Notes under the pieces: model-generated
Database searches by the model: none
What the model was told of the DNA's origin: nothing
What the model saw: the letters and a program-made list of their open reading frames with translations, nothing else
In this document: in pieces, positions 13,566 through 64,000 of the stretch
Position numbering within the stretch: position 1 is the stretch's first letter
How the letters are laid out: every line of letters starts with the position of its first letter
Origin: Lycium barbarum
Lineage: Eukaryota; Streptophyta; Magnoliopsida; Solanales; Solanaceae
DNA: 64,000 bases
Reading direction: 5' to 3'
Assembly (NCBI RefSeq): GCF_019175385.1
Contig: NC_083337.1
Span: 43,996,938 to 44,060,937 of the forward strand
Position numbers and translations under genes: made by a program

Positions 13566-13601
13566 GCATTGGCTAGCCGACAGGATTAGGAGGCATCGCC
13601 A

Positions 13602-19639: not shown

Positions 19640-19645
<6 letters not shown>

Positions 19646-19715
<70 letters not shown>
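19646..19715. repeat. (AT)n microsatellite
   Basis: About 35 uninterrupted TA units in the F1 3' LTR. It produces spurious Tyr-Ile repeat frames on both strands. Confidence 0.95.

Positions 19716-19717
<2 letters not shown>

Positions 19718-21963: not shown

Positions 21964-22058
<95 letters not shown>
21963..22058. repeat. (AC)n(AT)n compound microsatellite
   Basis: About 13 AC units pass into about 34 AT units directly before the F3 LTR start. Confidence 0.95.
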
Positions 22059-22062
<4 letters not shown>

Positions 22063-23763: not shown

Positions 23764-25066
23764 GTTAGCCTACATACCTCTTTGTCTTCTTAACTACCTA
23801 ACGTTCATCGCCAAGGCTTGAGAAATCTACATTTAAAAGGATTCATACCATGTTTAAGTCTTAAAGACATTCTTGAATTCAAACTAGAACAACTCATGAG
23901 CTAACAAAAATTGGGTAGCATTTCCCCTATTTCATCGACTTCCACCATATCGTAAAACCATCCCCAAACAACCATAACAACATCCACAATATCACAATCA
24001 AGTGGTAATATTCCATTAAGTCTCAAAATTCATTCTCATATTCAACTTATACGAACAACTTCACACCAACCCTTTGCACAATTTTATATAACACTTCCTT
24101 GTCATCATTAACACCCTTCATAACAAGATTATATCCATAGCATACTAAAAATCATGACACAAGTTAGTTTACTGCTCAAAATATCATAAATTCTACATTT
24201 GAGCTCCATTTTCTACTTTCTTCCCTCACCCAAGTCATTCAATACCAACATGCTTAAAAACATGAAATAGACATGAAAAATAACCTTTTATCTCATAGGA
24301 ATGGGCTTTGGATCAAGTTACCAACTTGTATGAAAACCCTAGCTTCAATACCAAAGAAATTCATAAAGTCTACTAACCCTAGTGAGTCTTCCAACACGTG
24401 GATATCTTGATTCTTGCCTCTTGATCTTTGATTTCTCTTGGGTTTGGTCCAATATATGTATGAGAAGGTTCTAGAGCTCTCAAGGGTTTAGGAGAAGTGG
24501 AAAAACTAAAAATAAGAACAAGGGTCATCTATTTATATCAAAAGAACAAAGCTGCCCGACCAAGTTATACGGACACTTATACGGTCCGTAAAACTTCATA
24601 CGGTCCGTATAAGTGGTAATATAATCCCACCTGGGATTGAACCTTCTCTGGAATGTTATACGGACCATTATATGGACCATATAAAGTTATACGGGCCGTA
24701 TAAGTGGTCGTATAACCCATTTGTTTCCGAACTTGCTGTCGTCGATTCGTTCAACCTCCAATCCTTATGGAACCTTATTAACACTTATATAACACTTCAT
24801 TAGGCATACAAAAGGTCCCATAGCCCCTCCTCAAGACATTACTAAATAAACATCAGCTCAATTATAGCGAAAGCCTTTCCAAACATGACTTACATTTCAC
24901 TTCCTTCAACGAACTTAGTTTCACATATTCATATGACTTCAAAATCTTATGGTTTGCACTTTAAGCTATCTAATACTCTCTTTAATCCCGTAAGGACTTC
25001 ATATTCACCTTAAGCTAGCATTAGTCTACTCACAATGCAACAATCCGAAATCTCAGAGGTGTAACA
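23764..25066 (-). repeat. R3 3' LTR, partial
   Basis: Ends GAGGTGTAACA at 25066 beside a PPT. The outer part (23764-24300) matches R3's right LTR at 34710-35250 closely, including 'ctacctaacgttca' and 'cttttatctcataggaatgg'. The rest of the LTR is in the gap. Confidence 0.88.
24580..24700. promoter_or_regulatory. U3 palindrome array of R3
   Basis: TACGGTCCGTA at 24580 and 24599, TATGGACCATA at 24671 and TACGGGCCGTA at 24690, with half-sites between. Comparable arrays lie at the same relative place in R6 and R5. Confidence 0.65.
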
Positions 25067-25102
25067 TTCTTCCCCCCTTAGAAACATTCGTCCTCGAATG
25101 TT
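25067..25102 (-). promoter_or_regulatory. R3 PPT with adjacent stem-loop
   Basis: Minus strand AACATTCG-AGGA-CGAATGTT (25102-25083), then TAAGGGGGGAAGAA against the LTR start. Confidence 0.8.
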
Positions 25103-25260
25103 AGACTTTTAGGGATTCTACAAAAAAATTGCCAGAGTTTCCCCTATAATATGCCACTACCATCCTGTCACAGCAACCTAAAATATATTACCTCACAGGG
25201 TTACAATAATAACATCAACAACCATGGCCACACACGACGAAGAAAGCTTCAAGGAAAGCA

Positions 25261-28200: not shown

Positions 28201-30083
28201 CACCACGGGGACAGACTGAAGAGTTGGCGATTCGGCTTCTTTATCTTAAACCCGGACTAAATGATAAATACAGCCTTTAGCAATCATTTTCCTAGCCTTG
28301 AGATAGGAAATAGAGCTAACTCTCAGAGACGCTGTATTTCCTTTCCATTCCAAAACTGGTTCTCCCGGAAACTGGAAGCGAACCATTTTTGTTCTGCAAT
28401 TGACATTAGCATAATAAGAAGCTAACCAATCCATGCCCATAATAACATCAAAGTCCACCATTTTTCAACTCATGTAAATTAGCCATAGTACGATGATCAA
28501 AAATCACAACTACACAATTTATATATACTCAACTAGCTATTACCGGTTCACCAGCGGTTGTCGATACCTCGAAAGGTTTGATTGACTCCGGTTTAACCCC
28601 AAATCGACCCGAAATATATGGAGTAACATATGATAATGTGGAGCCTGGATCTATCAATGCATATAAATCAAGAGAAAATGCTGATAATATACTTGTAACA
28701 ACATTAGGGGAGGACTCAAGATCCTGCCATCCAACCAAAGCATAAATACGGTGCTAAGGACCACTAGAACTGGGAGCACCTCCTTTACCTCTACCACTGC
28801 TGACTGGTGCCTGTGAACCTTGCCCCAGAGGGCGTATGGATGATGAAGACTCGACTGCCAACCTTGAAGGCTGGATCCTACCCCTACCACCAATTGAGGG
28901 GCAGTCACACATGATATGGCCTGGCCGACTGCATGCATAGCAAACATCTGAACCCATTCGGCACTGGCCCCAATGTAACTTCCCGCACTGGGAACATCGT
29001 GGCATGGGTTTCCTCACCTGACCCGAGTCGCCTCTGTAATGAGAACCTGAAGCTCTAAACTCTGACTCGGCCCGGAGTGAGTAGATCTATCAAATCTGTG
29101 GCCCGTAAACTGTGGAGGCGCATTAGTCATAGAATGGCCGAAATGCCTGAAAAACTGCTATCTTTGCCCTCCTCTAAACTCACAAGTCAGACCCGAAGAT
29201 CTAGCCCTCTTGTTATAACCTCTGTCAAGTTCACGCTCGCCTCTTTGCGGTTGTTGGCTTTTCTCAAAATTCTGGGCATGGGCTTGAGTGCGAGAAATAT
29301 CCATATTGTCCTAAAGGGATGCAGTCAAGCACTTGTCCATCAAATGTGGCCCTAAGCCACTCACAAATTGGTGCACTCGATAACCCATATCCACTACCAT
29401 GGCAGGAGCATACCTAGCCAAAGAATTGAAGCGGAGACTATACTCTAAGGCACTTATACTTCCTTGCCTAAGATTCAAGAACTTGTCGGCTCTAGCCCGT
29501 CAAACTTCTGGGGCCAAGTAATATCGAAGGAAAGCATCAACAAATTCTTGCCATACCGGGGGAGGTGTACTGACTCCCCTATAAGACACCCAAACCATAC
29601 ACCAATGGACCGCAACATCCCGCAATCTATATGATGCTAACTCTACCGATTCAACGTCTGAAGCATGCATTAGCCTAAGTGTCCTCAATATTCCATCAAT
29701 AAAGTTTTGAGGGTCCTCATCTGGTTTTGACCTGAAGAACTCCGGAGGGTTTAAGCTAATAAAATCGCGAGCTCTTGCACTAACCGCCCTGTCACCATGA
29801 CCTATACCCTGCCGCTGGGCCTGCGCGGCAACCAATTGAGTCAACAGTTGAATGGCCTTTTTCATCTCTTGGCCCGAAACCTCTGGTGGAGGAGCTGGGG
29901 TGCTGGAGCTGGTGCTGGGACTTCCTCATGCTCCTCATAAATAGGCAACGAGTGAGAGGACTGACATTGAATCGCATTTTGGGACTCACCCTCCTCTATA
30001 TTTTTTGGCGGTGATCTTTCAGCCCGCCTTTCTATCACTGTCTTACCCTTTTGGGCTGCTGGAGCTTTCCTCTTTACAGACAT
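25261..30083 (-). pseudogene. R3 gag-pol, decayed
   Basis: Gag starts at ATG 30083 (MSVKRKAPAAQKG). Order on the minus strand: gag core (ARARDFISLNPPEFF near 29770), CCHC region (CYACSRPGHIMCDC near 28930), protease ([12 protein letters not shown] near 28650), RT (MCIDY..LN near 27960; FIDDILVYS near 27650, followed by a stop), RNase H (YIDHKSLQHIF near 27020, NVVADALS near 26900), integrase ([14 protein letters not shown] near 26530, [10 protein letters not shown] near 26330, [10 protein letters not shown] near 26160, [11 protein letters not shown] near 26050) and chromodomain (LWKNNNREEMTWE near 25370). At least four frame changes and several stops split it. The second integrase Asp is Asn here (SNRG), a catalytic loss in itself. 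The layout matches R6 almost domain for domain. Not functional. Confidence 0.92.
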
Positions 30084-31769
30084 TTCTGAAATACATAGCA
30101 CACGATTAAGTAAAGAGAAGTCCTTATGTAGTAGCTCTATCGCACGATTTATGAAGAAAAAAATCATTCATTCCTAAATGCCTGCAGCCTCCTGTTTATA
30201 AGTGTGGCGCACAACACACCCATAAACAAGAATCTACTGGACACGGCTCGTAGACACACCCAATCGGAGGGCCATGACGGGCACCCGGAGCTAACCCACC
30301 CAGTCACCTCTCGTCGGAAATTCACATTCATATCTAGGTGAGCCACATGGCTTATCGACAAACTCTATGCCTCAATAATACCATTTCCAACGGCTAAAAC
30401 ACTTTTATATCAACGTCAACAACTACGCCCATATACATATACACAAGCTGACGAAGCTAACAAAATAATATACCAAAAATATGAGCCGACAAGGCAAAAG
30501 ACATCTACTATCCATGACTGTCTACGAGCCTCTAAGAAGAGTAGGAAACATCATCATAAGGACGGGACAGGGCCCCGCCATGCTCATATGTATATACATA
30601 AAAGAATAGTACTAACAGCTGCAGCTCCGGATCAAATGGAGCTCCTCTATGCAATCACGGGATATGCAGCCTAAGGATCAAGTCTATCTCTCTATCCACC
30701 TGCGGGCATGACGCAGCGTACACAAACAAAAGGACGTCAGTACGGATAATGTACTGAGTATGTAAGGCATAATCAATAAAATAATAGAAGCATGATCGAT
30801 AACATAAGAACGAAGAGTCATGAGATGATAGAGCCATTTATACCTCTAGCAACGTTCATCATATTTTTCCTTACCCTTTTTCTAATGGGAACCTTCCATT
30901 TCATACATTTATACATATAGTAGTATCATACTTGACCATAGAAGTTCGGTGTCTCATATACCCGGCCATGACAAGGCTAGGTGTTATACATACCTGGCCC
31001 TACCAAGGCTCAGTGTCATTCGTACCCAACTACAGTGGTGTGTGCACAATAGATATCATACCCGGCCATATAAGCTCGGTGTCACGACCCAACCCCGTGG
31101 GCCGCGATTGGTACCCTAACTGGGTACCCATATGTACCTACCTGATCGAATTCGAATCATACAGATTTTTTTTTTTTGTGAAAACAGAAGTTACCGAAGT
31201 AGGCCGATATAGATATGGCACGCGCGCAAACATATATATATATAGCTAAACATGCAGACATTTACAGGTAAGCCGATAAGGCTAACATACAGACGAAACC
31301 CGTAACCCACACATCTATCTACAGGCCTCTACAGACATACAAAATCATATGACGGGACAGGGCCCCGCCGTACCCAGAATTTCCATACATACAGAACATA
31401 CGGAAAACAGAAGATATATATACCAAAAGTGTACGCTCCGGATCAGAGGAGCTCTTCAAAATAGCTGAATCAGAACCCTACGCTGGCGGCGTGTCACCGA
31501 GCGCGCCTGTACTTGCGGGCATGTAACGCAGCCCCCGAGGAAACGGGGGTCAGTACAAAAATGTACCGAGTATGTAAAGCAGAAATATATCAAACATAAT
31601 CATGATCTGGACCGGAAGCACGGAGATATAATAGACAGTCTCATAGGCCGGACAGACAGAGACATAGTCCCGACAAACTGACAGAATCGTGGTCCAGACA
31701 GACAGAATCAGAGTCCATGCAGACATACAGAATCGGGATCCATACGGACATACGGAATCGAAACCCGTC

Positions 31770-46310: not shown

Positions 46311-47888
46311 ACTCAGCTTTTTCCGAAGTTGTTCTCGTCGCTTCGTTCAGTAAAAAGGTCATAACTCTTGATCCCTATATTGTGTGAGGTCCCACAACAT
46401 ATGATTGGAAAGCCCTTTTAATTATATACAACTTTCATTCTTAGGTTTTTTCCAAATTTCAAACTCATAATGGCATTTTGGCCCCTCAAAGTCAGATCAT
46501 CCGAAAATGTTTCCTTAAATCGCCCTTTTGGATGGCTTATGCCCATATTTGGCTTATGGGTACTTCTTAGGACTTGCTCAACTTTCCATGTACTTCTCAT
46601 ATATCTCTTCAAATTTCCTTTATAAAACTCCGGCGTGTGGGTGTTATATCCCGCATTTTGTACATTCGGATAATTCAAGAAAATTGCGGGAAGTTAAGAG
46701 AAAGGCTATATTTTGATTTTGTCTAACACACAAGCTGCTTATGAAAATTTTTGAAGTGGGAATATTAAGAGAAGCTAGGGGTAAAAAGGGAAATTCTCAA
46801 TATGACTCATGGAAATATGGAGGAAGGCTAAGGGCAAACATGAAATTTGGAGAATAATTTTTCATGAAGTGCAAAACAAAACAAAAATGGGCTTGGAAAT
46901 TAAAGGGGGTCATTTGGGTCGTCCATAATAGATGGGCCAAATCCCATATGGGGACAAAATTAATAAGTCCAAAAGATGACTTATTTTAGTCATCTTATTC
47001 ATTTCATTCCTAGAAATTTCAGGAAGCTTAAAGAACAAAAGAGAAGGAGAAAAGAGCCAAAGGCCATTCGGCCATGTCCAACTCCAACAAGAACCTTGGA
47101 AAATTTTTATCAAAAATTATTTTCTTCTAGCTGAACAATCCATTGAAAGGTCCTTAGCAAAGTGAAGTGGTTATTGGAGCAAGAAAGACATATATTCATA
47201 CAAGTTGGAAATTCTAGCCAAGTGAAGAATCAAGGAAAAAGGTAAGGTTTAATCCTTTTCTTATATGTTATGGATGATTATGTATGTTGTAGTATGTGAA
47301 AGTGGATGAAATTCATGGAAATATGGACACTTGTTGTGGTCGTGCATGTATGTGTGTGTGTGGGATGTGGATGCTATGTTGATAATGAAAGTTGGATGAT
47401 TCTAGTGAGGTTGTGATGGTTGGAGAGTTGTTTTAGAAATTAGTGTGATTTGAAAATAGTCTTCTTGTATTTATGGAAGATAATGTTGTTAGTGTGTAAA
47501 TTGTTGGGTTGTTGTGATTGAATTTGGAAGAAGGAATTAGGTTGTTATTGTTCTTATTGGAGTTGGAAGGTCTTGGGGAAAATAGTATGTTGATTGGGTT
47601 GTTTGGAATGTTATGTGAATTGTTGATGTATTTTTGAATCATGTTAGAAAGATTTCGGATTAATACTTGAATGTGGGATCATTGGTGTTAGTTGGATTAT
47701 ATGTGATTGAATTGAATATAAATGAATTGCCGATGAATTGTGTGACGAAGGTTGCTAATGTTAGAATATATTTTGGATTGATTGTTGAAGTTGTTAGTAT
47801 GATTGTTGGTATTGTTGTTGATAGTTTGGCCGAGTTAAATTCTCGGATTGTTGTTGATAAGAATTGGCCAAGTTAGATTCTCGAGGAT

Positions 47889-47927
47889 GGTGTATTTACA
47901 GGGGAAATGCTGCCGAAAATTCGGTAG
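47889..47927 (+). promoter_or_regulatory. F2 LTR core-promoter box
   Basis: TGTATTTACAGGGGAAATGC then TGCCGAAAATTCGGTAG; the second copy is at 63496-63532 in the 3' LTR. Just upstream GGCCGAGTTAAATTCTCGG and a second, similar GGCCAAGTTAGATTCTCG occur; R6 landed in the second. Confidence 0.45.
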
Positions 47928-48655
47928 ATAAAGTGTTAGTTAGGATGAGATTCTTGGATATCTATAGCTAATGTTTGTATTCATTAACATTGTTATTGGG
48001 AAGGCCAAGAGTTAAGTTGGATTGACTAAGGAAGCGGACAAGGTATGTTAAGGCTCGTCCCTTTCTTTCAAAGGCATGATCCCGATGTTATGATTCCATA
48101 ATTGTTTCCATATTTTCCTTGTTTTCAAAAGTTAGATGTTTATGATTTCAAGGCATGATTCTTTTCCCGATAACCTGTCAATGTTTTCCAAAAATGTCCG
48201 TATTTTTCCAAAACAAAGGTTTATGGTATTGTAAGCTTTTATGACAATAACGATGGATATGTTTTACAACGACATTGATGATGTCGAGGATAAGAATATT
48301 TCTATGATGGCTATGATAAGAATGGTTTCATGTTTGAAAGGTACTTGATGTGATCATTGCTTGATTTTCCAAAAATGGCTTCTGAAAAGTTCGTAGAAAG
48401 TTCTGTACTTCAAACGCCCATAACTTTTTCATACTAACTCGGATTAACTCAAAACATGGTTATGATCTTATTCTATGTCCTCTTAACGCTGTTATTCGTT
48501 GCTAGTCTCATCTTATGGTAATCGTTCCTTCAAGGTGAGACAAAGTCATGATGATTGTTCCATAATATATTCGAAGGTTACCGACCTTACGTCACTCCGA
48601 TAGATACATGACTTTCCTTGGGCTCTCATGCATGCTTTATAATTAAGTATGTATT

Positions 48656-48845
48656 TTAATAACACCGTGCCTACATGGCCGGGCAGTATAACACCGCGCC
48701 GTCCAATAGGCGGCCGGGCAGACACACCACTGCAGTGGGCAGATTATGATTACCCCGGACGCGGGCGGCCTGGACGCGGGCTAATGATGATTACACCGTG
48801 CCTAAATGGCCGGGCAGCATTACACCGTACCTATATGGTCGGGCA
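48656..48845 (+). repeat. GC-rich imperfect repeats in the F2 LTR
   Basis: Five or so units of 'acaccgtgcctacatggccg' then 'ggcag', with inserts holding CGCGGGCGGCC and CACTGCAGTGG. Units can fold (GCC...GGC). Confidence 0.65.
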
Positions 48846-49021
48846 GTTTACTTGCAAATATTTATATGTTTTTCGAAAGAAAGCTAGCATGCATGGTATC
48901 CGCCTTAAGAGGCCCTCATATGTACAGGTTACTCTTTTATCTTATGATACGCTCTATATTTCCCTTCAGCTATTATTCATACATTACATCCCTTATTATG
49001 TTACTATTCATGCCTTACATA

Positions 49022-49084
49022 CTCAGTACATTGCTCGTACTGACCCCCTTTCTTCGGGGGCTGCGTTTCATGCCGCGCAGGTAC
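49022..49084 (+). promoter_or_regulatory. F2 LTR three-hairpin module
   Basis: TCAGTAC-attgctc-GTACTGA, then CCCCC-tttcttc-GGGGG, then CTGCG-tttcatgcCG-CGCAG. It lies about 400 bp before the LTR end and about 1.1 kb after the TATA region, so probably inside the transcript. Function unknown; RNA structure, poly(A) signalling or packaging are options. Confidence 0.65.
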
Positions 49085-49484
49085 ACCCAGATGAGCTGAA
49101 GCTATTATAGAAGATGTTCCAGCGGAGTTGGCAAGCTCCACTTGTCCCTGGAGTGCTGCCGAGTCAGAGTATGTGTGCTATGATGTCCGATTAATGTTAG
49201 AGACTTTGCAGACAGAGTCGTAGAAGTAGTATGTCAGTATTGAAAGCGGTTTCACCAGTCGATGTGTCTATATATATTATGTTACAGATTCCACATGACC
49301 ACAGATTTTGTTTGATTTGAGAACGACGAAAGAAAGATCCTGAAAGCTTAACTATGTTTTTCATTTCTTATTGATGTAAGAGTCTAAAGAGATTAAGTAT
49401 GTAATAAGAGTCAGTGGGTTCGGTCGGCTCCGAATATGGGGTCGGGTGCCCATCACACCCTAGTAAGATCGGGGTGTGACAAAG

Positions 49485-49497
49485 TGGTATCAGGGCA
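49485..49497 (+). other. F2 primer-binding site
   Basis: TGGTATCAGGGCA, iMet-type with one A-to-G change, three bases after the LTR end. Confidence 0.85.
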
Positions 49498-50389
49498 GGT
49501 TTGTCCTAGGGGTTGTCTGCAAAGTCGTGTCCAGTAGAGTCCTTTTTATGGTGTGAAGCGCGCCACATTTATAAACAGGAGGCTACGGGGCATCTAGGGA
49601 TTGTCGACCTTCTTTCTGTCACAGATCGTGCGATAGAGCCAAGTCATAGGAAAATGAAATTCCATATGTGAGCCTTACATACGACGGAAGAAGGCAAGTG
49701 ACGATATGGAAAGGTCATAAGGGTAAGTCTGGATATATTTGTTCTATTACCCGAAACAGAAAGCTCTGGATGGTTGGAATGTGATATATAGCTGTATGAT
49801 CTGTGAGATGTTGTCGATATTTGCTATGTACAGATTTTGAATAGTAGGAATGGTAAAGGAGACCCGGTCAGAATCCTTTCCAAAATCAGGATATTTGATC
49901 TGGAACACCTAACAGGAAGAGCGTGGAAGGAAAATATTGTATATAGACGATAAGTGGGATGTGATACTTTAGAAGAGCTACGAATTTGGGCATGGCATGA
50001 AAGATGATTGTAAGAAAAATGAATAGTAGTCTGAAGGACTAAAATGGATGACGTTCGAGGCTTAGTAGGACCAAGGTCAGTTGAGGGATTCAGAGAAAGT
50101 TGACAATCAGTTTGCCGTAGATTATCATGTAAGGATGCTGAGTGGAAATCTGAATAGGCTGATACCCGAAGCATTCATAAGTAACGGCGATAAAGGTATA
50201 TGTGCTACCATCGGGAATCTGGAAGTCCAGGACAGGCAGTAGTCTTACACACAGGTGGGAGGTGAATACTGAAGATCGAAAAGGGTAAAATAGTAATTGT
50301 AAAAGGAAAGGACGTGTTACAAACATGTCTCGAAATATGTAAGACCTCGACTAGGCACAAATCATGTAATAAAGGTCATGTGAGAAAGC

Positions 50390-50492
50390 GGACGCGATTA
50401 TATCAGCATTAAGGCACCGAATCCCTCCAAAGTTTCGAGGTTAAGCGTGCTAAGGTGGGAGCAATTTCAGGATGGGTAACCCCCTGGGAAGT
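50390..50492 (+). pseudogene. 5S rRNA-derived segment inside F2
   Basis: Aligned from memory to plant 5S rRNA positions 1-103 without a gap, about 79 of 103 bases agree. Best kept are the internal promoter parts: A-box GTTAAGCGTGCT (positions 52-62 nearly exact) and C-box AGGATGGGTAACCCCCTGG (one or two changes), ending CTGGGAAGT. The start GGACGCGATTATATCAGC matches GGATGCGATCATACCAGC with 3 changes in 18. The 3' end (positions 104-119) is not kept. It is sense to the element, midway through the interior. Cassandra TRIM elements carry 5S sequence in their LTRs; here it lies in the interior of a gypsy-type LARD. Probably a captured copy; whether Pol III still binds is unknown. Confidence 0.85.
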
Positions 50493-51935
50493 ATGCCAGA
50501 AGTTCTATATATCCAGACATAAGAGACAAATGAGAAGTTAGAGTAATCTAAGGGAAACTAGAGTATACGGAATGGCGGGAAACCGTAAGAGGTCGCTTAA
50601 GACGAGGTAGGCTAGACTGGAGAAGAGACAGAAAGTGCGTCACAGCTCTGGAAATTTGGATAGGCTTGAATAGCGTTTGGAAGTATTCGTGGGCTAGTTG
50701 ATAGTAATTATATATCTATGAATGCATATGATATGTGATTGTATCGGTGGACATGTGAGCTCCAGAAACCGGCTAAGGAAGGCATTAATCAAGTAAGGGT
50801 ACCGAAGGTTGAGTGATAGCAAGAATAAATGATATAAGTTTACAAGGTAAATTGACGTCATTTTCACTACAGGTTAAGATTGGAAAACTTAAATACAGCG
50901 ATATTTGGAAAAGAGAGAGAGTGAGTAAATAGAAAACAAAGAGATTAAAGTGTCGAAAGAATGTGAAAGGTAAGAAACCTCAGTAAGTGAAGCTCCCGAG
51001 AGAAATTATCGGCAAAGCGCGAGACTATTTGGGTAAGAACTCAAAGTAGCCATGTGAAAAGGCGTAGAGTGTGGTAAAAGGAAACAGGAGAGGAGTGTAT
51101 GAGGTTCGAGAACCGATTTCGATAAGTGGGGCTAAAGAAATAGTGACTAGGATAGGGAATGTGAAGTAAGAGAAAGAATGCTTAGGCTTGCGATGATGTT
51201 GAGGTGAGAGATCTATAAAAGAATAAATGTGTAGCTATATTAATGTAACTAAAGGTTCGATGAACAAGGATAGAGAGAGTGAAAGTTGTAAGGATTCTGT
51301 GCTAAGAACAAAAGTAGCGGGACACTTGAGAAATATGGACAAAATGATGGCATAGGCAGAAAGAAAAAAGGAAAACTTAGGATAAGAAGTTTTCGATATG
51401 ATAGACACAGAGTTGGAAGGAAGATGAGGAATAAGGCATAAACGAAGACTTCATAAAAGGACTGTTGGCATATAATGAGCCCCTTAAAGGGGGGAGACCT
51501 TATTATATTAGGCCAAAAAGGGATCACAACATTTTCAAGTACCAGAAAAAGAAACTTATTAGTTTGGGGAAAAAGTTTAAAATATGTCGGCACATCGGGA
51601 GTAAGTAAAGAATATTTCGAACGACGACGACTATTATAACGAAAGTATCAAAATTGGTAGTTTGAGAATTTGAGAGGAAGAAAGAATGCAGTAATGAAAC
51701 AAAAGAGTTCATCCGACAATAGAAAACAGTTCACGAACCATTAATCGTACGGAGCATGAGAATGTATGCTATGAAATTGTATGAATCATCGACGTGAAGC
51801 GGTATTCAATCATGTATGTAGGGGATCCACACCGAAGAGCCAACAAGAAATAACGATGGACGAAACGAGAGCCAATACAAATAAATCAAAGACAAGTATA
51901 CTTGTGTCAAGAAATGACCTGGGAAGGACAAGGAT

Positions 51936-52020
51936 AATGAGGTGGCGCAGTGGATTAAGAAACTCATGACGTAGAATGAGGACTCGTGTAAAGACCCAGG
52001 AGTTCGAGTATAAGGAAAAT
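51936..52020 (+). pseudogene. tRNA-like (or SINE-head) segment inside F2
   Basis: TGGCGCAGTGGATTAAG (51943-51959) fits the Pol III A-box TRGYNNARNNGG. AGGAGTTCGAGTA (51998-52010) fits the B-box GGTTCGANTCC with a few changes. The spacing and the GACTCGTGTAAAGACCC stretch before the B-box resemble a class II (Leu/Ser) tRNA with a long variable arm. I cannot pair a convincing acceptor stem, so a decayed SINE head is equally possible, and chance is not excluded. Confidence 0.45.
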
Positions 52021-52109
52021 AGGGTAAGGGATAAGGAATGGGCACGAAGAAAAGGACAACTATAGAAGGGACCCTCCCGAAGTACTATAACACCCCATAA
52101 GACCAGTTG

Positions 52110-52145
52110 AACATTCGAGGACGAATGTTCTAAAGGGGGTGAGGA
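52110..52145 (+). promoter_or_regulatory. F2 PPT with adjacent stem-loop
   Basis: AACATTCG-AGGA-CGAATGTT (52110-52129), then AAAGGGGGTGAGGA directly before the 3' LTR. Intact although the element codes for nothing, so it is probably needed in cis. Confidence 0.85.
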
Positions 52146-53419
52146 TGTTATATCCCGCATTTTGTACATTCGGATAATTCAAGAAAATTGCGGGAAGTTA
52201 AGAGCAAGGCTATATTTTGATTTTGTCTAACACACAAGCTGCTTATGAAATTTTTTGAAGTGGGAATATTAAGAGAAGCTAGGGGTAAAAAGGGAAATTC
52301 GCAATATGACTCATGGAAATATGGAGGAAGGCTAAGGGCAAACTTGGAATTTGGAGAATAATTTTTCATGAAGTGCAAAACAAAAAAAAATGGGCTTGGA
52401 AATTAAAGGGGGCCATTTGGGCCGTCCATAATAGATGGGCCAAAGCCCATATGGGGACAAAATTAATAAGTCCAAAAGATGACTTATTAGTCATGTTATT
52501 CATTTCATTCCTAGAAATTTCAAGAAGCTTAAAGAACAAAAGAGAAGGAGAAAAGATCCAAAGGCCATTCGGCCATGTCCAACTCCAACAAGAACCTTGG
52601 AAAATTTTTATCAAAAATTATTTTCTTCTAGCTAAACAATCCATTGAAGGGTCCTTAGCAAAGTGAAGTGGTTATTGGAGCAAGAAAAACATATATTCAT
52701 ACTATTTGGAAATTCTAGCCAAGTGAAGAATCAAGAAAAAAGGTAAGGTTTAATCATTTTCTTATATGTTATGGATGATTATGTATGTTGTAGTATGTGA
52801 AAGTGGATGAAATTCATGGAAATATGGACACTTGTTGTGGCCATGCATGTATGTGTGTGTGTGGGAATAATGATTTAATTATTTTATCTAGTGTTTGGTT
52901 GTTGCTGTTGTGGATTCTATGTTGATAATGAAAGTTGGATGATTCTAGTGAGGTTGTGATGGTTGGAGAGTTGTTTTAGAAATTAGTGTGATTTGAAAAT
53001 AGTCTTCTTGTATTTATGGAAGATAATGTTGTTAGTGTGTAAATTGTTGGGTTGTTGTGATTGAATTTGGAAGAAGGAATTAGGTTGTTATTGTTCTTAT
53101 TGGAGTTGGAAGGTCTTGGGGAAAATAATATGTTGATTGGGTTGTTTGGAATGTTATGTGAATTGTTGAAGTATTTTTGAATCATGTTAGAAAGATTTCG
53201 GATTAATACTTGAATGTGGGATCATTGGTGTTAGTTGGATTATATGTGATTGAATTGAATATAAATGAATTGCCGATGAATTATGTGACGAAGGTTGCTA
53301 ATGTTAGAATGTATTTTGGATTGATTGTTGAAGTTGTTAGTATGATTGTTGGTATTGTTGTTGATAGTTTGGCCGAGTTAAATTCTCGGATTGTTGTTGA
53401 TAATAATTGGCCAAGTTAG

Positions 53420-55843
53420 TGTCACGACCCGGCTAGGGGGCCGCGACGAGCACCCGGTGCTACCCCACCCGAGCACCCCCTTATCGTACATAACATAACA
53501 TCTAGGTGAACCATAAGTCAATTCAGGCTTTTTTTTTATTTTATTATCGGTAATCATATTGATCCCATTAGACGATCATCATCATTTAACGTATCATAGG
53601 CATCTAGGCCACACCATAAGTACAAGGCCGACGTGGCTAACAAAAGATATACAAAACATGGGCCGGCATGGCCGAACATCTCTACCCACATACACATGAC
53701 TACGAGCCTCTAAGAGTATGACATATCGTATGAGCGGGACAGGACCCCGCTATGCCCATAATTATATACACAAAAGAATAAGTACCCAAAAGCTACGGCT
53801 CCGAAAGAAATGGAGCTCTGCTATGCAATCTCTGAATAAGCAGCTATGGATCAAGTCTGTCTCTCTGTGCACCTGCGGGCATGACGCAGCGTCCACAAAC
53901 AAAAGGAGGTCAGTACGAAGAAAGTATTGAGTATGTAAAGCATGATCAACATCAATATAAAAGCATAATAGATAGCATATGAAGATAGCATAGGAGGGGA
54001 GGCAGTAATATCATCATCATCATGTCGCTTACTTGCAAACATCGTCGTTCGTATCACATAATAATACTCGTACCATACTTGTGCTCATATTCGTATACAT
54101 GTCCTTATTCGTATTCTTGTACATAGTCTTATCACATTCATATTCATATTATATACCTAGCCATACACTTATATACATACATAGCGTACCCGACCATAAG
54201 GTTCGGTGTTTCATACGTACTTGGCCAACCAAGGCTCAATGTTATTTCTACCTGGCCCTACCAAGGCTTCAGGGTTATCTGTACCATCTGCAGACGTGCG
54301 CGCGCGTTTCGTAATCGTATACGTACTTCATGCATATTCATATACATATATTCTACCCGGCGTTATAAGCTCGGGGTTCATTATAGCCCTTCATAGGCAC
54401 ATATAAGTATAATAGCCCGTAGGCACCTTTTGCATCATTTTTGATATCATTGTCATTACTATTCTCATCGTTATCGTTATATCTACATTATGGACTTACT
54501 CGTCATACGAGGAACATAGTATAATCATAGTACATATCAAGGGTCGTGAGCTTATGAGCTCGGAATGTCAACCATGTGAAGACAACATACTCATATGGAG
54601 GAATTAGGAATTTGGCCAAGAACCATGCCTTATGAAAGAAGGGTTAGCCTTACATACCTTTCCGTCGAACTATTATACACTTGCACGTTCCCTTCCAATG
54701 CTAGCGTTTATACCTTCATTAATATCATAACTATGGTCATTAGTCATTCACATTATCCACATTATCTAGATTCCTCAATTTGCCTCTAATTCACCCACAT
54801 TCATGATTATAACACCCATCTTCGTCCATTCGTCTAAAGTGTTTAGTTCATGATCTTAATACCATTTATAACACATTCATATCACAACACAACAACATTC
54901 ATAACTCAATTCAAACTATTTCTCAAAATGTCACTATTCATCATTCATGACCTAGTTGACCACATTTTCTACAATCCATGTATTTTAATTCTCCAATACC
55001 TTAAACATCTTGTAAAAATCATGAATCTTACCTTAGAAGTTGTAGGAACAAGCTTTGGTTGATAATACTCTTCTTTGAGCAAAACCCTAGTTTTTCTCCA
55101 TTTGGATTTCTTGACTTGGATGATCCTTGATGATTCCCTTATCCGTGATTCACTTGTCTTAATGTTATTGATGGCTTATAATCCTTGAAACTCATATAAT
55201 AAATGTAGAGAGAAGTTCTAGAGAGAAGTGGTGTAATGTTGTAATAAAATAAAATAAGTCTTGATCCTCATATTTAATGAATTGGAAAATCTGTGTTGGG
55301 TGAACAGTGGTCGTCCATGGAGGTTTACGGACCGTATTCCACTATACGGCTCGTCCTCCATGGGCGTATTTAGCCATTTCCAGAACCAGAAGCTGGGCTG
55401 CCTTCATGGTGGTTTACGGCCATGGTTTACGGGCCGTAAATCACTTTACGGTCCGTCCACCAGGTCGTTTTTAACCATTTCCTCGGCTGGCAGAAAGTTG
55501 AAGTTTGGCATGCCAGTTTACGACCTGGCAGTTTACGGACCGTATACCAGTTTACGGTCCGTATTTGCACTTTACGACCATTGGCAGAAAGCTGAAGCTT
55601 TTGCATGGCAGTTTACGACTGCCAGTTTACGGACCGTATTTCACTTTACGGTCCGTATTTTGCAATATACGACCACTGGGCAGTTTTGCCAACTTTCAAT
55701 TTTTCTCATTTCTCGACTTTTCATTCTAATCATCCACATCCCTTTTCATACATTTCCCATGAAACATTATACACTCGCACTCCTCGCACACATCATTAGT
55801 TCATTTACTTGCGTACCAACGGGAAATTTTCCAAGGTGTAACA
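53420..55843 (-). repeat. R6 3' LTR, 2,424 bp
   Basis: TGTCACGACCCGGC at 53420 to AAGGTGTAACA at 55843. Hairpin II of the conserved module is damaged here ('ggaggtcag'), while the 5' LTR keeps 'ggacgtcag'. U3 palindromes lie at about 55325-55660. Confidence 0.95.
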
Positions 55844-55879
55844 TTCTACCCCCCTTAGGAACATTCGTCCTCGAATGTT
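55844..55879 (-). promoter_or_regulatory. R6 PPT with adjacent stem-loop
   Basis: Minus strand AACATTCG-AGGA-CGAATGTT (55879-55860) then CCTAAGGGGGGTAGAA against the LTR. Confidence 0.85.
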
Positions 55880-56049
55880 AAAGGCTTGGGGAATTCTATA
55901 AAAATTTCGCCAGAGTTTCCTCTGTAATGTGGCACTACCACCCTGTCACAACAACCCACAATAACAATGCCTCACAGGGCAATAATACAACAGCACTAGA
56001 AATTTGGCCACACACGACCTGAATGTATAAAAGGGAAAACATGCATACC

Positions 56050-59000
56050 TTATGATTTTGACGTCTCATCTTGGACTTCTTCCAAGGGCTGAAATAAATG
56101 TGGGTATTTGGATCGCATATTCTCTTCTGCTTCCCATGTCATTTCCTCTCGATTGTCATTTCTCCACAGAACTTTAATTGACGTCACTTCTTTGTTTCTA
56201 AGCCTCCGTACTTGTCTATCTAATATGGCAATGGGTATTTCATCATAAGTTAACTTTTCTGTCACTTGAATATCATTCACTGGGACGATCCTCGTAGGAT
56301 CTCCAACACACTTCCGAAGCATCGAGACATGAAATATTGGATGGACTGACTCCAAATCTGGAGGTAGATCTAGCTCATAGGCCACTTTGCCTATTTTGCG
56401 CACAATTTCGTATGGCCCAATATACCGGGGACTGAGCTTCCCCTTTTTGCCAAATCTCATTACGCCCTTCATCGGCGACACTTTCAAGAATACCCAATCT
56501 TTCACTTCGAACTCTAAGTCTCTTCGACGATTATCCGCATAGGACTTCTGACGACTTTGAGCCGCTAGCAACCGATCTTGTATGAGCTTAACTTTCTCTA
56601 TTGCTTGCTGGACCAAGTCTGGCCCTATCAACTTAGCTTCTCCAATTTCAAACCACCCAACTGGGGATCTACACTTTCGCCCATATAGAGCCTCATACGG
56701 TGCCATTTGAATGCTAGAATGATAACTGTTATTGTAAGCAAACTCAATGAGTGGCAAATGGTCATCCCAATTTCCTCCAAAATCTATCATACATGCCCGT
56801 AACATATCTTTAAGAGTCTGAATAGTACGTTCAGCTTGCCCATCGGTCTGTGGGTGAAACGTCGTGCTTAGGCGCACTTGGGTCCCTAAACCTTCTTGGA
56901 AAGACCCCCAAAACTTGGCTGTAAACTGAGTCCCTCTATCGGAGATAATAGATACCGGAACGCCATGGAGTCTCCCTATCTCTTTAAGATAAAGCTTGGC
57001 ATAATCTTCTGCCATATAGGTCGTTCTGACTGGTAAGAAATGCGCTGAATTTGTGAGCCTATCCACGATCACCCATATAGAATCATATTTACGTCGAGAA
57101 CGGGGTAACCCTGTAATGAAATCCATATTAATCACTTCCCACTTCCAAGTTGGGATTTCTATAGCTTGCAATAAGCCACCCGACTTTTGGTGTTCTATCT
57201 TCACTTGTTGGCAATTAGGACACTGGGCTACGAATTCCGCTACGTCTTTCTTCATCCCATTCCACCAATATATAGTCTTAAGATCATGATACATTTTCGT
57301 CGCTCCGGGGTGAACGGAGTAACGGGAACAATGAGTTTCTCTCAAAATCTAATGGCGTAGACCTACCACATCGGGAACACATAACCTGCGTCGACATCGG
57401 AGAACTCCATTTTCCGAAATGTCAAATGATGACTCCTCCTTCTGAGGGAGTGTATCTCTGTACTGCATTAGCATGGGATCCTCATATTGTCGCTCTTTTA
57501 CTTCCGCTACTAACGATGAAACTGCTGAATTCTGAATAGTATCTCCGCTGCTACCTGAGTCCACCACTCGGACTCCTAGGCTAGCTAACTGCTGAAGATC
57601 ACGGGCCATCTCTTTCTTTTCTGGTCGTACATCACTTAGACTTCCCATCGACCTATGGCTAAGAGCATCAGCCACCACATTTGCCTTTCCGGGGTGGTAC
57701 AGGATTTCAACATCATAGTCTTTTAGCAACTCTAGCCATCGTCGTTGCCGCAAATTCAACTCTTTCTGCTTGAAGATGTACTGGAGACTCTTATGATCTG
57801 TATAAATATCCACGTGGACACCATATAAGTAATGTCTCCATATCTTTAAAGCATGGACCACCGCGGCCAATTCTAAGTCATGGGTAGGATAATTTTGCTC
57901 ATGTTTCCGTAATTGTCTAGAAGCATACGCAATCACCTTACCATTTTGCATCAATACACAGCCTAGCCCGACGCCTGAAGCATCACAATAAATAACATAT
58001 CCTTCCAATCCCTCTGGAAGTGTCAAGACTGGGGCTGAAGTCAGTCGGTCTTTCAACTCTTGGAAACTACACTCGCAAGCATCTGTCCATTGAAACTTAG
58101 CTGACTCCTGAGTCAACTTGGTGAGCGGTGCAGCAATAGAAGAGAAACCCTCAACAAATCTTCTGTAATAACCGGCTAAGCCCAAAAAGCTACGAACCTC
58201 CGTAGGGGTCGTGGGCCTTGGCCAAGTCTTCACTGCCTCAATCTTTTGGCTATCCACTCGAATACTGTCAGTTGCAACAATGTGGCCCAGAAATGCCACT
58301 GAGTTCAACCAAAACTCGCATTTGGAAAACTTCGCGAATAACTCTCGAGCTCGAAGAACTCCAAGGACAATTCGCAAATGATCCACATGCTCTGCCTTGG
58401 ATCTAGAATACACTAGGATGTCATCGATGAATACAATCACGAATCGATCCAGAAAAGGCCTGAATACATTGTTAATTAAGTCCATAAACACTGCCGGTGC
58501 ATTAGTTAGCCCAAACGACATTACCCGGAACTCGAAATGGCCATATCTTGTTCTGAAAGCTGTCTTAGGGATATCTTTCTCCCTAACTCTTACTTGGTGA
58601 TACCCGGACCTCAAATCAATCTTTGAAAACCATTTGGCACCTTCCAATTGATCAAATAAATCATCAATCCTCGGGAGGGGATACTTGTTCTTAATTGTCA
58701 CTTTATTCAATTGTCGATAATCAATGCACATTCTCAAGGAGCCATCCTTCTTCCGGACGAACAATACGGGTGCTCCCCACGGGGATGAACTAGGCCTAAT
58801 GAAGCCTTTTTCAAGCAAGTCTTTTAATTGCTCCTTCAACTCTTTCAACTCTGCGGGTGCCATCCTATAGAGAGGAATAGATATGGGATTAGTGTCTGGC
58901 AGCACATCAATCGCAAAATCGATCTCTCGCTCGGGAGGAAGGACTGGAAGCTCTTCCGAGAACACATCCGGAAATTCGTTCACTACCGGAACTGACTGAA

Positions 59001-60849
59001 GAGTCGGCGACTCAGCTTCTACATCTTGAACTCGTACTAGGTGATAAATGCACCCTTTCGTGATCATTTTCCTTGCCTTTAGATAGGAAATAAACCTACC
59101 TTTTGGTGATGCCGCATTCCCTTTCCATTCTAAGACTGGTTCTCCCGGAAACTGGAAATGAACTATCTTCATTTGGCAATCAACATTGGCATAACAAGAA
59201 GCCAACCAATCCATGCCCATAATAACGTCAAAATCTACCATTTCTAGCTCATGCAAATTAATCATGGTACGACAATCACAAATCACAATCACACAATTCC
59301 TATATACTCGGCTAGCTATTACCGATTCACCCACAGGTGTAGACACCTCGAAAGGTTTGATAGACTCCGGCTCAATTATAAATCGACCCACAATATATGG
59401 AGTAACATATGATAATGTGGAGCCCGGATCAATCAAATCATATACATCATGAGAGAATACCGATAATATACCTGTGACTACATCAGGAGAAGACTCAAGA
59501 TCTTGGCGTCCAGCCAAAGCATAAATACGGTGCTGAGGACCGCTAGTACTGGGAGCTCTGCCTCTACCACTACCATGGCCGACTGGCGCATGTGAACCTG
59601 GCCCCGTAGGGCGTACAGATGCTGATGATCCGGCTGCCGACCCTGCTGGCTGGGTCCTACCTCTACCCTGTACTGAGGGGCAATCACGCATGATATGGCC
59701 TGGTTGACCACATGAATAGCAACCATCCGAGCCCAATCGGCATCGACCCCAGTGCAACTTCCCACACTGGGAACATCGTGGTACAGGTGGCCTTGACTGG
59801 CCTGAATCACCTCTAAACTGAGACCCCGAATAACCCTGACTAGGCTCGAAACGAGTAGATCTGTCAAATCTCTGCCCCGTGAACTGTGGAGGTGTACTGG
59901 TCATAGAATAGCCTGAATGGCTCGGAAACTGTTGTCTGTGTCCGCCCTTGGACTCGCTCCTCGAACCCGAAGGTCTGGCCCTCTTGTTATGGCCCCTATC
60001 CTGCTCACGTTCATTTCTCTGCTGCTGTAGGTGTTCCTCTAATTCCTGAGCATGTGCCTGAATGCGTGCAATATCCATGCCATCCTGAAGGGACGCAGTT
60101 AAACATTTATCCATCAAGTGTGGCCCTAGGACTTTCACAAACCGGTGCACCCGATCGCCCATATCCGCTACCATGGCCGAAGCATACCTAGCCAAGGAAT
60201 TGAAGCGGAGACTATACTCTGTAGCACTCATGCTACCTTGCCTCAAATTCAAGAATTTATCGGCCCTAGGTCGCCGAACTTCCGGAGGCATATAATGACG
60301 GAGAAAAGCATCAACAAACTCTTGCTATACCGGTGGAGGTGCATTGGCTCCCCGCGAAGCCATCCAAACCGTATACCACTGGATTGAGACATCCCTCAAT
60401 CTATATGACTCTAGCTTCAGCGATTCGGTGTCTGAAGCATGTATCAACCGGAGCATCCTTAGCATACCATCAATAAAGTCCTGGGGATCCTCCTCCAGTT
60501 TCGACCCAAAGAATTTCGGGGGTTTCAAAGCAATGAAGTCACGGGCCCTTGCACTAACAGTCCTGTCACCTTGCCCTGCGCTTGGCCTCTGAGTCTGGGC
60601 CGCAACCAACTGAGTCAACAAATTAATGGCCTCTCTCACGTCTTGGCCCGAAGCATTCGGTGGAGGAGCTGGAGCTGGGGCTGAGGCTCCCACGTGCTCC
60701 TCAGTAATAGGCACTGTCTGGGAGGACTGAGATTGAGCCGCACTCTGGGACTCATATTCCTCTACTACCGGTGGCGGTGCTCTTTCAGCCCGCTTTTCTG
60801 CCACCGTCTTGCCCTTTTGGGCTGCTGTAGCCTTTTTCGTTTTAGGCAT
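56050..60849 (-). pseudogene. R6 gag-pol polyprotein, one frame, two nonsense codons
   Basis: A single frame of 1,600 codons runs from ATG 60849 (MPKTKKATAAQKG) to the stop at 56050, with no frameshift. Order: gag core (ARARDFIALKPPKFF); two zinc modules near 59775-59680, the second [14 protein letters not shown]; protease with LIDPGST (Asp codon 59430); RT with MCIDYRQLN and FIDDILVYS (near 58425); RNase H with all four acidic residues (YCDAS, LELAA, YTDHK, VVADAL); integrase with HHCC, INMDF, SDRGTQ and AERTIQ, the last two 35 residues apart; GPY; chromodomain LWRNDNREEMTWE ending near 56100. TAG codons interrupt gag near 60325 (Trp in R3's frame) and the start of integrase at 57349-57351 (Gln in R3). 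Both are C-to-T type changes. Everything else looks functional, so read-through or a sister copy without them could be active. Confidence 0.93.
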
Positions 60850-61042
60850 CTCTGAAAAACACAACACACGATTTAGGAACAAGAATTTCTTACATCATAG
60901 CTCTATCGCACGATTCTTATGAAGAAAGAAGGTCATATATTCCTAAAATGTCCGTAGCTTCTCGTTTATAAGTGTGGCGCGCAACACACCCATAACCAAG
61001 ACTCTACTAGACACGGCTCGTAGACACATCCTAAGACTGAAC

Positions 61043-61055
61043 TGCTCTTATACCA
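61043..61055 (-). other. R6 primer-binding site
   Basis: Minus strand TGGTATAAGAGCA, iMet-type with one C-to-A change, four bases from the LTR. Confidence 0.85.
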
Positions 61056-61059
61056 CTTT

Positions 61060-63476
61060 TATCACGACCCGGCTAGGGGGCCGCGACGAGCACCCGGTGC
61101 TACCCCACCCGAGCACCCCCTTATCGTACATAACATAACATCTAGGTGAACCATAAGTCAATTCGTGCTTTTTTTATTATCGGTAATCATATTGATCCCA
61201 TTAGACGACCATCATCATTTAACATATCATAGGCATCTAGGCCACACCATAAGTACAAGGCCGACGTGGCTAACAAAAGATATACAAAACATGGGCCGGC
61301 ATGGCCGAACATCTCTACCCACATACACATGACTACGAGCCTCTAAGAGTATGACATATCGTATGAGCGGGACAAGACCCCGCTATGCCCATAATTATAT
61401 ACACAAAAGAATAAGTACCCAAAAGCTACGGCTCCGAAAGAAATGGAGCTCTGCTATGCAATCTCTGAATAAGCAGCTATGGATCAAGTCTGTCTCCCTG
61501 TGCACCTGCGGGCATGACGCAGCGTCCACAAACAAAAGGACGTCAGTACGAAGAATGTACTGAGTATGTAAAGCATGATCAACATCAATATAGAAGCATA
61601 ATAGATATCATATGAAGATAGCATAGGAGGGGAGACAGTAATATCATCATCATCATGTCGCTTACTTGCATACATCGTCGTTCGTATCCCATAATAATAC
61701 TCGTACCATACTTGTGCTCATATTCGTATGCATGTCCTTATTCGTATTCTTATACATAGTCTTATCACATTCATATTCATATTATATACCTAGCCATACA
61801 CTTATATACATACATAGCGTACCCGACCATAAGGTTCGGTGTTTCATACGTACTTGGCCAACCAAGGCTCAATGTTATTTCTACCTGGCCCTACCAAGGC
61901 TTCAGGGTTATCCGTACCATCTGCAGACGTGCGCGCGCGTTTCGTAATCGTATACGTACTTCATGCATATTCATATACATATATTCTACCCGGCGTTATA
62001 AGCTCGGGGTTCATTATAGCCCTTCATAGGCAAATATAAGTATAATAGCCCGTAGGCACCTTTTGCATCATTTTTGATATCATTAACATTACTATTCTCA
62101 TCGTTATCGTTACATCTACATTATGGACTTACTCGTCATACGAGGAACATAGTATAATCATAGTACATATCAAGGGTCGTGAGCTTATGAGCTCGGAATG
62201 TCAACCATGTGAAGACAACATACTCATATGGAGGAATTAGGAATTTGGCCAAGAACCATGCCTTATGAAAGAAGGGTTAGCCTTACATACCTTTCCGTCG
62301 AACTATTCTACACTTGCACGTTCCCTTCCAATGCTAGTGTTTATACCTTCATTAATATCATAACTATGGCCATTAGTCATTCACATTATCCACATTATCT
62401 AGATTCCTCAATTTGCCTCTAATTCACCCACATTCATGATTATAACACCCATCTTCGTCCATTCGTCTAAAGTGTTTAGTTCATGATCTTAATACCATTT
62501 ATAACACATTCATAACACAACACAACAACATTCATAACTCAATTCAAACTATTTCTCAAAATGTCACTATTCATCATTCATGACCTAGTTGACCACATTT
62601 TCTACAATCCATGTATTTTAATTCTCCAATACCTTAAACATCTTGTAAAAATCATGAATCTTACCTTAGAAGTTGTAGGAACAAGCTTTGGTTGATAATA
62701 CTCTTCTTTGACCAAAACCCTAGTTTTTCTCCATTTTGATTTCTTGACTTGGATGATCCTTGATGATTCCCTTATCCTTGATTCACTTGTCTTAATGTTA
62801 TTGATTGCTTATAATCCTTGAAACTCATATAATAAATGTAGGGAGAAGTTCTAGAGAGAAGTGGTGTAATGTTGTAATGAAATAAAATAAGTCTTGATCC
62901 TCATATTTAATGAATTGGAAAATCTTGGTTGGGTGAACAGTGGTCGTCCATGGAGGTTTACGGACCGTATTCCACTATACGGCTCGTCCTCCATGGGCGT
63001 ATTTAGCCATTTCCAGAACCATAAGCTGGGCTGCCTTCATGGTGGTTTACGACCATGGTTTACGGGTCGTAAATCACTTTACGGTCCGTCCACCAGGTCG
63101 TTTTTAACCATTTCCTCGGCTGGCAGAAAGTTGAAGTTTGGCATGCCAGTTTACGACCTGGCAGTTTACGGACCGTATACCAGTTTACGGTCCGTATTTG
63201 CACTTTACGACCACTGGCAGAAAGCTGAAGCTTTTGCATGGCAGTTTACGACTGCCAGTTTACGGACCGTATTGCACTTCACGGTCCGTATTTTGCAATA
63301 TACGACCACTGGGCAGTTTTGCCAACTTTCAATTTTTCTCATTTCTCGACTTTTCATTCTAATCATCCACATCCCTTTTCATACATTTCCCATGAAACAT
63401 TATACACTCGCTCTCCTCGCACACATCATTAGTTCATTTACTTGCGTACCAACGGGAAATTTTCCGAGGTGTAACA
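61060..63476 (-). repeat. R6 5' LTR, 2,417 bp
   Basis: Inner terminus TATCACGACCCGG (G-to-A at the second base) and outer terminus GAGGTGTAACA. Hairpin module at 61506-61567, with stems CTGCG / CGCAG, CGTCC / GGACG and TCAGTAC / GTACTGA, all intact. Confidence 0.95.
62959..63290. promoter_or_regulatory. U3 palindrome array of R6
   Basis: TACGGACCGTA at 62959, 63167 and 63261; TACGGTCCGTA at 63186; near-copies at 63061, 63080 and 63280; half-sites TTTACGACC between. The array starts 186 bp from the LTR's 5' end and is repeated in the other LTR. It keeps a long non-genic reading frame open. Confidence 0.75.
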
Positions 63477-64000
63477 GTTAGATTCTCGAGGATGGTGTAT
63501 TTACAGGGGAAATGCTGCCGAAAATTTGGTAGATAAAGTGTTAGTTAGGATGAGATTCTTGGATATCTATAGCTAATGTTTGTATTCATTAACATTGTTA
63601 TAGATTTTGGGAAGGCCAAGAGTTAAGTTGGATTGACTAAGGAAGCAGACAAGGTATGTTAAGGCTCGTCCCTTTCTTTCAAAGGCATGATCCCGATGTT
63701 ATGATTCCATAATTATTTCCATATTTTCCTTGTTTTCAAAAGTTAGATGTTTATGATTTCAAGGCATGATTCTTTTCCCGATAACCTGTCAATGTTTTCC
63801 AAAAATGTCCGTATTTTTCCAAAACAAAGGTTTATGGTATTGTAAGCTTTTATGACAATAACGATGGATATGTTTTACAACGACATTGATGATGTCGAGG
63901 ATAAGAATATTTCTATGATGGCTATGATAAGAATGGTTTCATGTTTGAAAGGTACTTGATGTGATCATTGCTTGATTTTCCAAAAATGGCTTCTGAAAAG

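Follow-up and report, generated by a model that had tools for sequence, protein, structure and literature searches.

The window analysed here, a stretch of 64,000 nucleotides from the genome of Lycium barbarum, contains a non-autonomous LTR retrotransposon that carries in its interior a segment derived from 5S rRNA (Table 1). Counting both LTRs, the full element would measure about 8.3 kb; as it runs on past the 3' edge of the window, its own target-site duplication is invisible. A nested gypsy-type element interrupts the 3' LTR, and the last five bases of the first LTR part, GTTAG, are the target-site copy of that nested insertion. The primer-binding site, which we take to be of the initiator-methionine tRNA type, is in place at 27 of 30 loci as the motif TGGTATCAG[A/G]. 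The longest stop-to-stop frame of the interior spans 132 amino acids in the window copy, none of the 6 frames tested, out of 34 listed, matched Pfam at an E-value of 1 or below, and frames of more than 157 amino acids are absent from four further sister stretches. A complete sister copy, L038, has a 5-bp target-site duplication, GAAAA; its polypurine tract is expanded into a long run of G near 7108-7127. The family thus displays the features of a LARD, namely LTRs, a primer-binding site and polypurine tract (window copy), a target-site duplication (L038) and no long coding frame. The original prediction of a "2.66-kb LARD" stands as regards the non-coding, LARD-type character of the element, and its figure applies to the interior alone.

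Table 1. Parts of the 5S-bearing element and of its 5S-derived segment, in window coordinates
Feature	Position	Strand	Basis or remark
5' LTR (TG...CA)	46642..49481	+	Self-alignment; ends by eye
Non-coding interior, ~2.66 kb	49482..52145	+	Frame listing, Pfam
Primer-binding site TGGTATCAGGGC	49485..49496	+	Sequence reading of window copy
Leader stretch without internal-branch change	49534..49557	+	Windows starting at interior 54-56
Second leader stretch, likewise unchanged on internal branches	49596..49619	+	Interior 116-139
5S rRNA-derived segment, 5S positions 1-103, sense	50390..50492	+	RF00001, gapless and local alignment
A-box, 5S 50-64	50439..50453	+	Internal-branch rate 0.067 per site vs 0.79 and 0.97 in flanks
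Intermediate element, 5S 67-72	50456..50461	+	Family-wide changes at 67 and 69
C-box (80-97) plus bases to 103	50469..50492	+	No internal-branch and no family-wide change vs host 5S
Polypurine tract AAAGGGGG, ahead of 3' LTR	52132..52139	+	Sequence reading
3' LTR, part one	52146..53419	+	Self-alignment; ends by eye
Nested gypsy-type element interrupting 3' LTR	53420..63476	-	GTTAG on both sides; outside the 5S finding
3' LTR, part two	63477..64000	+	Opens with repeated GTTAG; continues beyond window end

The first 159 bases of the interior are 76% identical to the corresponding region of the nested element, which makes the group of the nested element a plausible source of helper functions. The nested element itself, flanked by GTTAG and with LTRs that are 98% identical (K2P 0.017), contains a 991-amino-acid open frame with gag, protease, reverse transcriptase and RNase H domains according to Pfam. 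The proteins most similar to its pol frame come from Solanaceae, and those of Lycium barbarum rank among the top. Three related gypsy-type coding interiors, with 72-79% DNA identity, are found in the window at 13560-16967 (+), 25057-30261 (-) and 55834-61031 (-), and the RF00001 scan of the window gave no 5S match in any of them. When the pol protein of the nested element was compared with viral contigs, no match was confirmed, and among genome contigs it matched four loci in bacterial assemblies; a plant-like gypsy pol also occurs in proteins P0010 and P0083 of Corynebacterium sp. MC-10. These bacterial occurrences are probably contamination. Elsewhere in the window, two simple repeats (19645-19716 and 21986-22066) are near-identical and self-complementary, and account for chance microRNA-like Rfam matches.

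Identity and origin of the 5S-derived segment

The segment begins about 910 bp into the non-coding interior and is identical to the host's own 5S rRNA at 80 of 103 positions, aligned without gaps over positions 1-103 (E = 9e-20 in local alignment). Against a provisional reference sequence of A. thaliana 5S rRNA, the gapless count is 78/103, and it does not exceed 46/103 anywhere else in the window on either strand. These counts bear out the 5S origin first proposed from an identity of about 77% judged by eye, and the earlier placement at 50390..50492 proved exact. The suggested check against RF00001 came out favourably in part: the model matches positions 50390-50506 (+), with an E-value of 2e-4 when 1 kb is searched and of 0.013 over the entire window, and the score of 31.8 bits lies under the 38-bit gathering score, a scan of the window at gathering scores returning nothing at all. 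At E up to 10 the segment gives the sole 5S match of the window, with none in the complete 5' LTR or in the nested element, in agreement with the predicted location in the interior rather than in an LTR. The 5S similarity ends at position 103, only 3 of the 16 bases at 104-119 matching.

The host 5S genes used for comparison were obtained from 47 scored matches among 59,751 first-look candidates, of which 44 form an array at C6:25.569-25.588 Mb and 3 lie on C11; 29 of the 30 genes fetched are identical. The three genes on C11, away from the C6 array, are spaced about 31 kb apart (94.009, 94.040 and 94.071 Mb). Across 40 family copies the identity to host 5S ranges from 77 to 83 of 103 positions, with a median of 81. 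The window copy shares A49 and C93 with host 5S, whereas the provisional Arabidopsis sequence differs at both positions, and it departs from both host and family at position 89 of the C-box (G to A).

Local alignment of the element to the host 5S unit spans base -1 to base 103, with no spacer homology, and the sequence upstream of the segment showed no relation to the host 5S spacer in this alignment. Similarity that starts with the very first base of 5S RNA and does not reach further upstream fits the capture of 5S RNA during reverse transcription, and a mature 5' end paired with a 3' end cut short would be expected if minus-strand synthesis had switched onto 5S RNA, run off its 5' end and returned to the element RNA. 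Capture from DNA instead of 5S RNA is possible. The LTR divergence of the window copy (K2P 0.024 and 0.006, for the two LTR parts compared) is much smaller than the 22% by which the segment differs from host 5S, so capture would long predate the insertion seen here. As to origin alone, the segment might instead have arrived through an inserted Cassandra LTR or a 5S-headed SINE rather than directly from 5S RNA or rDNA, a similar route having been proposed for Cassandra and Ajax in the available text of PMC10886601; a 6-bp direct repeat on both sides of the segment would agree with such an insertion. However, the repeat has only 6 bp and one of its copies lies 39 bp past the segment, the similarity starts exactly at 5S base 1 and covers 1-103 with no poly(A) after it, and A49 and C93 are common to segment and host 5S, all of which makes this indirect route improbable. 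Its SINE variant was marked down further, as the segment occupies the same interior place in 40/40 copies, lacks poly(A) and has a repeat of only 6 bp.

Conservation of the A and C boxes within the family

With the interior as query, the genome of the window gave 10,615 first-look candidates, the best 40 of which were scored and all fetched. These 40 copies, among them that of the window, represent the closest matches to the window and not a random draw. All 40 carry the segment, which answers in the affirmative the question, raised with the original prediction, of its presence in other copies of the genome. Its offset from the interior start is 908-910 bases in four further stretches, and it is retained in sister copies whose LTRs are partly unrelated and whose interiors are in some cases longer. 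A 22-base string from the A-box region that is absent from host 5S occurs 1,095 times in the genome, and a 28-base string joining the C-box to the adjoining element sequence occurs 863 times, with no occurrence of either backward control; these are counts of exact strings, not of element copies. A 231-bp query gave 4,238 first-look candidates, and the 40 of these that were scored show 90-100% identity. Some copies stand in tandem, at steps of about 10 kb (C6:81.777-81.821 Mb) or about 4.4 kb (C1:47.245-47.263 Mb and C1:83.219-83.248 Mb), and resemble the arrays described for Cassandra. Patterns derived from the segment had no match in viral contigs or in the genome contigs searched; a protein search with the 5S-containing frame yielded no candidate, and one with the longest antisense frame yielded 36 candidates, none at E up to 1.

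Pairwise diversity is 0.091 in the segment and 0.164 in the 300-bp flanks, where no window is as low (0/394 windows of 103 bp against the segment, 0/552 windows of 24 bp against 80-103). By part, diversity is 0.063 at 1-25, 0.170 at 26-49, 0.072 in the A-box, 0.133 at 65-79 and 0.029 at 80-103, and just outside, at 104-119, it reaches 0.194. Across the whole interior the segment ranks 299th of 1,818 overlapping windows and fifth among non-overlapping ones (30 copies), with equally low windows in the leader and elsewhere in interior 1-570; interior 1-600 is slow as well.

To separate the two phases in the life of a copy, changes on terminal branches, which represent decay after insertion, were counted apart from those on internal branches, which represent changes during element replication. 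The main tree was built from the interior minus the segment (40 copies, median ultrafast bootstrap 98), the flanks comprised 300 bp upstream and 300 bp downstream (600 sites), and the boxes were fixed in advance as 50-64 and 80-97; we assumed positions 50-64 for the A-box and 67-72 for the intermediate element. On terminal branches the segment changes at 1.02 per site, with 0.82 in the upstream and 1.20 in the downstream flank, and on internal branches at 0.41, against 0.79 and 0.97, respectively (p = 5e-5). The internal rate is distributed unevenly along the segment: 0.27 per site at 1-25, 1.04 at 26-49, 0.067 in the A-box, 0.67 at 65-79 and zero at 80-103. Taken together, the A and C boxes have a single internal change in 33 sites, compared with about 527 over the 600 flank sites (about 0.88 per site; Fisher p = 8e-8), while the terminal rates are 0.97 in the boxes and about 1.0 in the flanks. 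This deficit was unchanged in six further runs (three re-rootings and three deletions of 10 copies), and a tree built from the flanks only gives the same picture (p = 0.0018 for the segment, p = 1.7e-4 for 80-103). The p-values are indicative, since all sites are read on a single tree and the copies were chosen as best matches. A comparison with host 5S agrees. Eighteen positions differ from it in 90% or more of the copies, none of them among the 24 of 80-103 and all among the other 79 (p = 0.011); two belong to the intermediate element (67 and 69), and three lie on the margins of the A-box. While the elements replicate, purifying selection acts on the A and C boxes. The slower change of the internal control region relative to its flanks, anticipated at the outset, is found for these two boxes on internal branches in both trees. 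Neither of the outcomes named beforehand as refuting the original prediction was thus obtained, with the sub-gathering RF00001 score of the window copy as a reservation. The further claim that they are the best conserved parts of the segment is clear across the family and falls short of significance in the window copy, where they match at 28/33 positions against 50/70 in the rest (p = 0.11, or 0.18 with the intermediate element added); box-against-rest tests inside the segment are weak with 30 copies, too (p = 0.034 and 0.09).

An old 5S fragment carried along as a neutral passenger, conserved through a low mutation rate or by chance, would account for the lack of a significant box excess in the window copy alone, and also for the terminal rate of 80-103, which at 0.58 per site is below that of the flanks; part of the slowness at 80-103 could therefore be mutational. 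Yet the overall terminal rates of segment and flanks agree and the internal ones differ, and 80-103 is one of only three places in 1.7 kb of interior with a 24-bp stretch free of internal change, so that we regard the passenger explanation as highly improbable. A mutational cold spot was discounted for the internal-branch deficit in both trees, with the terminal rate at 80-103 as a reservation. The other stretches free of internal change, within 49534-49619 of the leader, are perhaps RNA dimerisation or packaging signals.

A site on DNA or a fold in RNA

The conservation of the boxes suggests that the elements use them for something, and the candidates divide into those acting on DNA and those acting in the element RNA. 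In the latter case a hairpin or partial 5S-like structure would be bound by a 5S protein or by Gag and serve packaging, export or translation. Folding of the copies predicts a possible hairpin at 76-100, positions 1-25 are constrained along with the boxes, which do not account for them, and the other most constrained parts of the interior belong to the leader by the primer-binding site, where RNA signals are expected. Against this, none of the 20 pairs of the 5S structure and none of the 23 pairs of the predicted fold has changed on both sides, and shuffled sequences pair equally well. The pair 15-64 is disrupted in all 29 distinct rows, the columns of helix III vary freely, and the partner strand of helix I (104-119) is missing from the segment. 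The full 5S fold can therefore not be kept, and a conserved 5S rRNA mimic was rejected on account of the fixed 15-64 mismatch, the absent helix I strand and the lack of covarying pairs. Binding of 5S proteins by the element RNA, one of the uses originally envisaged, is likewise weakened by the missing 3' strand of helix I, the variability of 26-49 and the absence of two-sided pair changes. An RNA role of some kind is an unlikely explanation, albeit the most serious competitor among those weighed here.

The freedom of 26-49, together with the absence of covarying pairs and a 5S fold that cannot be closed, favours a DNA-level TFIIIA/Pol III site over an RNA mimic, as does the coincidence of the frozen blocks with the A and C boxes. 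Of the 40 copies, 36 have an intact C-box motif AGGATGGGTG, which PMC10853983 gives as the canonical plant one, and 26 are identical to host 5S over the whole of 80-103. The blocks might also serve a function unrelated to their 5S past, for instance as the site of another DNA- or RNA-binding factor that arose from the captured sequence, which would accommodate the constraint at 1-25 and in the leader as well as the altered intermediate element. But the two most frozen blocks coincide with boxes that were named in advance, and no position of 80-103 has changed family-wide relative to host 5S, which renders such an unrelated function quite unlikely.

The observations themselves show that the segment derives from 5S, holds a constant place in the interior, is carried by every scored copy and has boxes under purifying selection; what follows on the route of capture, on an effect at the DNA level, on the bound factor and on the advantage to the element is interpretation. 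The ancestor of the family, a non-autonomous gypsy-type LTR element of the Solanaceae, would have captured 5S, probably when reverse transcription switched templates onto 5S rRNA, and in the lineages that replicate, selection would since have preserved the A and C boxes as an internal control region acting at the DNA level. Once a copy is integrated, its boxes would attract TFIIIA, and probably TFIIIC and Pol III as well, with one of two results: a short sense transcript, or a site that is occupied and accessible and favours the element's expression. We assign a probability of about 0.5 to this reading of capture followed by selection on the boxes as a TFIIIA/Pol III control region. A Pol III transcript initiated at +1 would start past the primer-binding site and so cannot be the RNA that is copied, whence its role would be auxiliary. 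Several results speak against full use by Pol III: a TTTT within 73-82 (near +76), a possible Pol III stop, occurs in 25 of the 40 copies, family-wide changes affect the intermediate element and the A-box margins, the sequence upstream does not resemble the host 5S spacer, and the boxes leave the constraint at 1-25 unexplained. The window copy has its first TTTT past the segment start at +472. Described more broadly, a Pol II-type LTR family may have domesticated a 5S piece, keeping its boxes and losing its RNA fold, and so become a hybrid Pol II/Pol III transposon, a description that we offer tentatively and with a little less than even confidence. If true, a Pol III factor site would be serving the expression, accessibility or survival of an LTR element.

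Relation to other 5S-bearing mobile elements

LTR elements that bear 5S sequences are known, namely Cassandra in plants and Ajax in nemerteans, each of which has its 5S part in short LTRs (PMC10886601, PMC10853983 and PMC7215508). Cassandra, like the present family, is a non-autonomous LTR element with conserved 5S A and C boxes and divergence between them (PMC10853983, as far as its available text goes). It carries 5S in both of its LTRs, as the original prediction had stated, and measures 565-860 bp according to the accessible part of PMC10886601, unlike the single interior copy in an element of about 8.3 kb described here; this comparison is with published descriptions of Cassandra. Membership in Cassandra/TRIMp3 was rejected, since the 5S sequence lies outside the LTRs and the 5' LTR alone has 2.84 kb and the interior 2.66 kb. 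TRIMs are smaller than about 1.3 kb. With respect to the boxes of TRIMp3, A and C are constrained in the present family and the intermediate element is changed family-wide at 67 and 69. The Ajax TRIMs share the presence of a 5S-derived promoter piece, of independent origin, in a non-autonomous LTR element, and differ in its LTR location, in their size of 421-434 bp, in their animal hosts and in having only the promoter part of 5S (PMC10886601, available text).

The long LTRs, the primer-binding site, the polypurine tract and the long non-coding interior common to many copies are shared with LARDs. The 5S-headed SINEs (SINE3) similarly illustrate the reuse of the 5S internal promoter by a mobile element, but they are short and LINE-driven, and the 5S part heads their own transcript, whereas here it is internal to an LTR element. 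Plant TFIIIA pre-mRNA holds a 5S rRNA mimic with a conserved RNA fold; it resembles the present case as a 5S-derived sequence reused outside the ribosome, and differs in its fold, which is lost in the element segment. Nine unknown repeat families of potato matched known non-coding RNAs, 5S rRNA included, in the accessible text of PMC4524691, and the present family may already be recorded there, unnamed. The open-licence PMC literature searched held, in the text available, no 5S-bearing LARD and no interior 5S piece in an LTR element.

When a mobile element has picked up a piece of a host RNA gene, selection on that piece can rarely be told from chance. Here, many copies in one genome allow two phases to be contrasted: replication, during which the boxes hardly change, and the time after insertion, in which the segment as a whole decays like its flanks. 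The question of whether a Pol II retrotransposon benefits from Pol III factors becomes testable. Surveys of repeats and rDNA in the Solanaceae could also pick up stray 5S signals from such elements. What is new is a selected 5S piece in the interior of a large LARD-type element, of which the selection is the strong part and the mechanism the weak one. It extends the range of 5S-bearing LTR elements from miniature ones with 5S in their LTRs to a large one with 5S in its interior.
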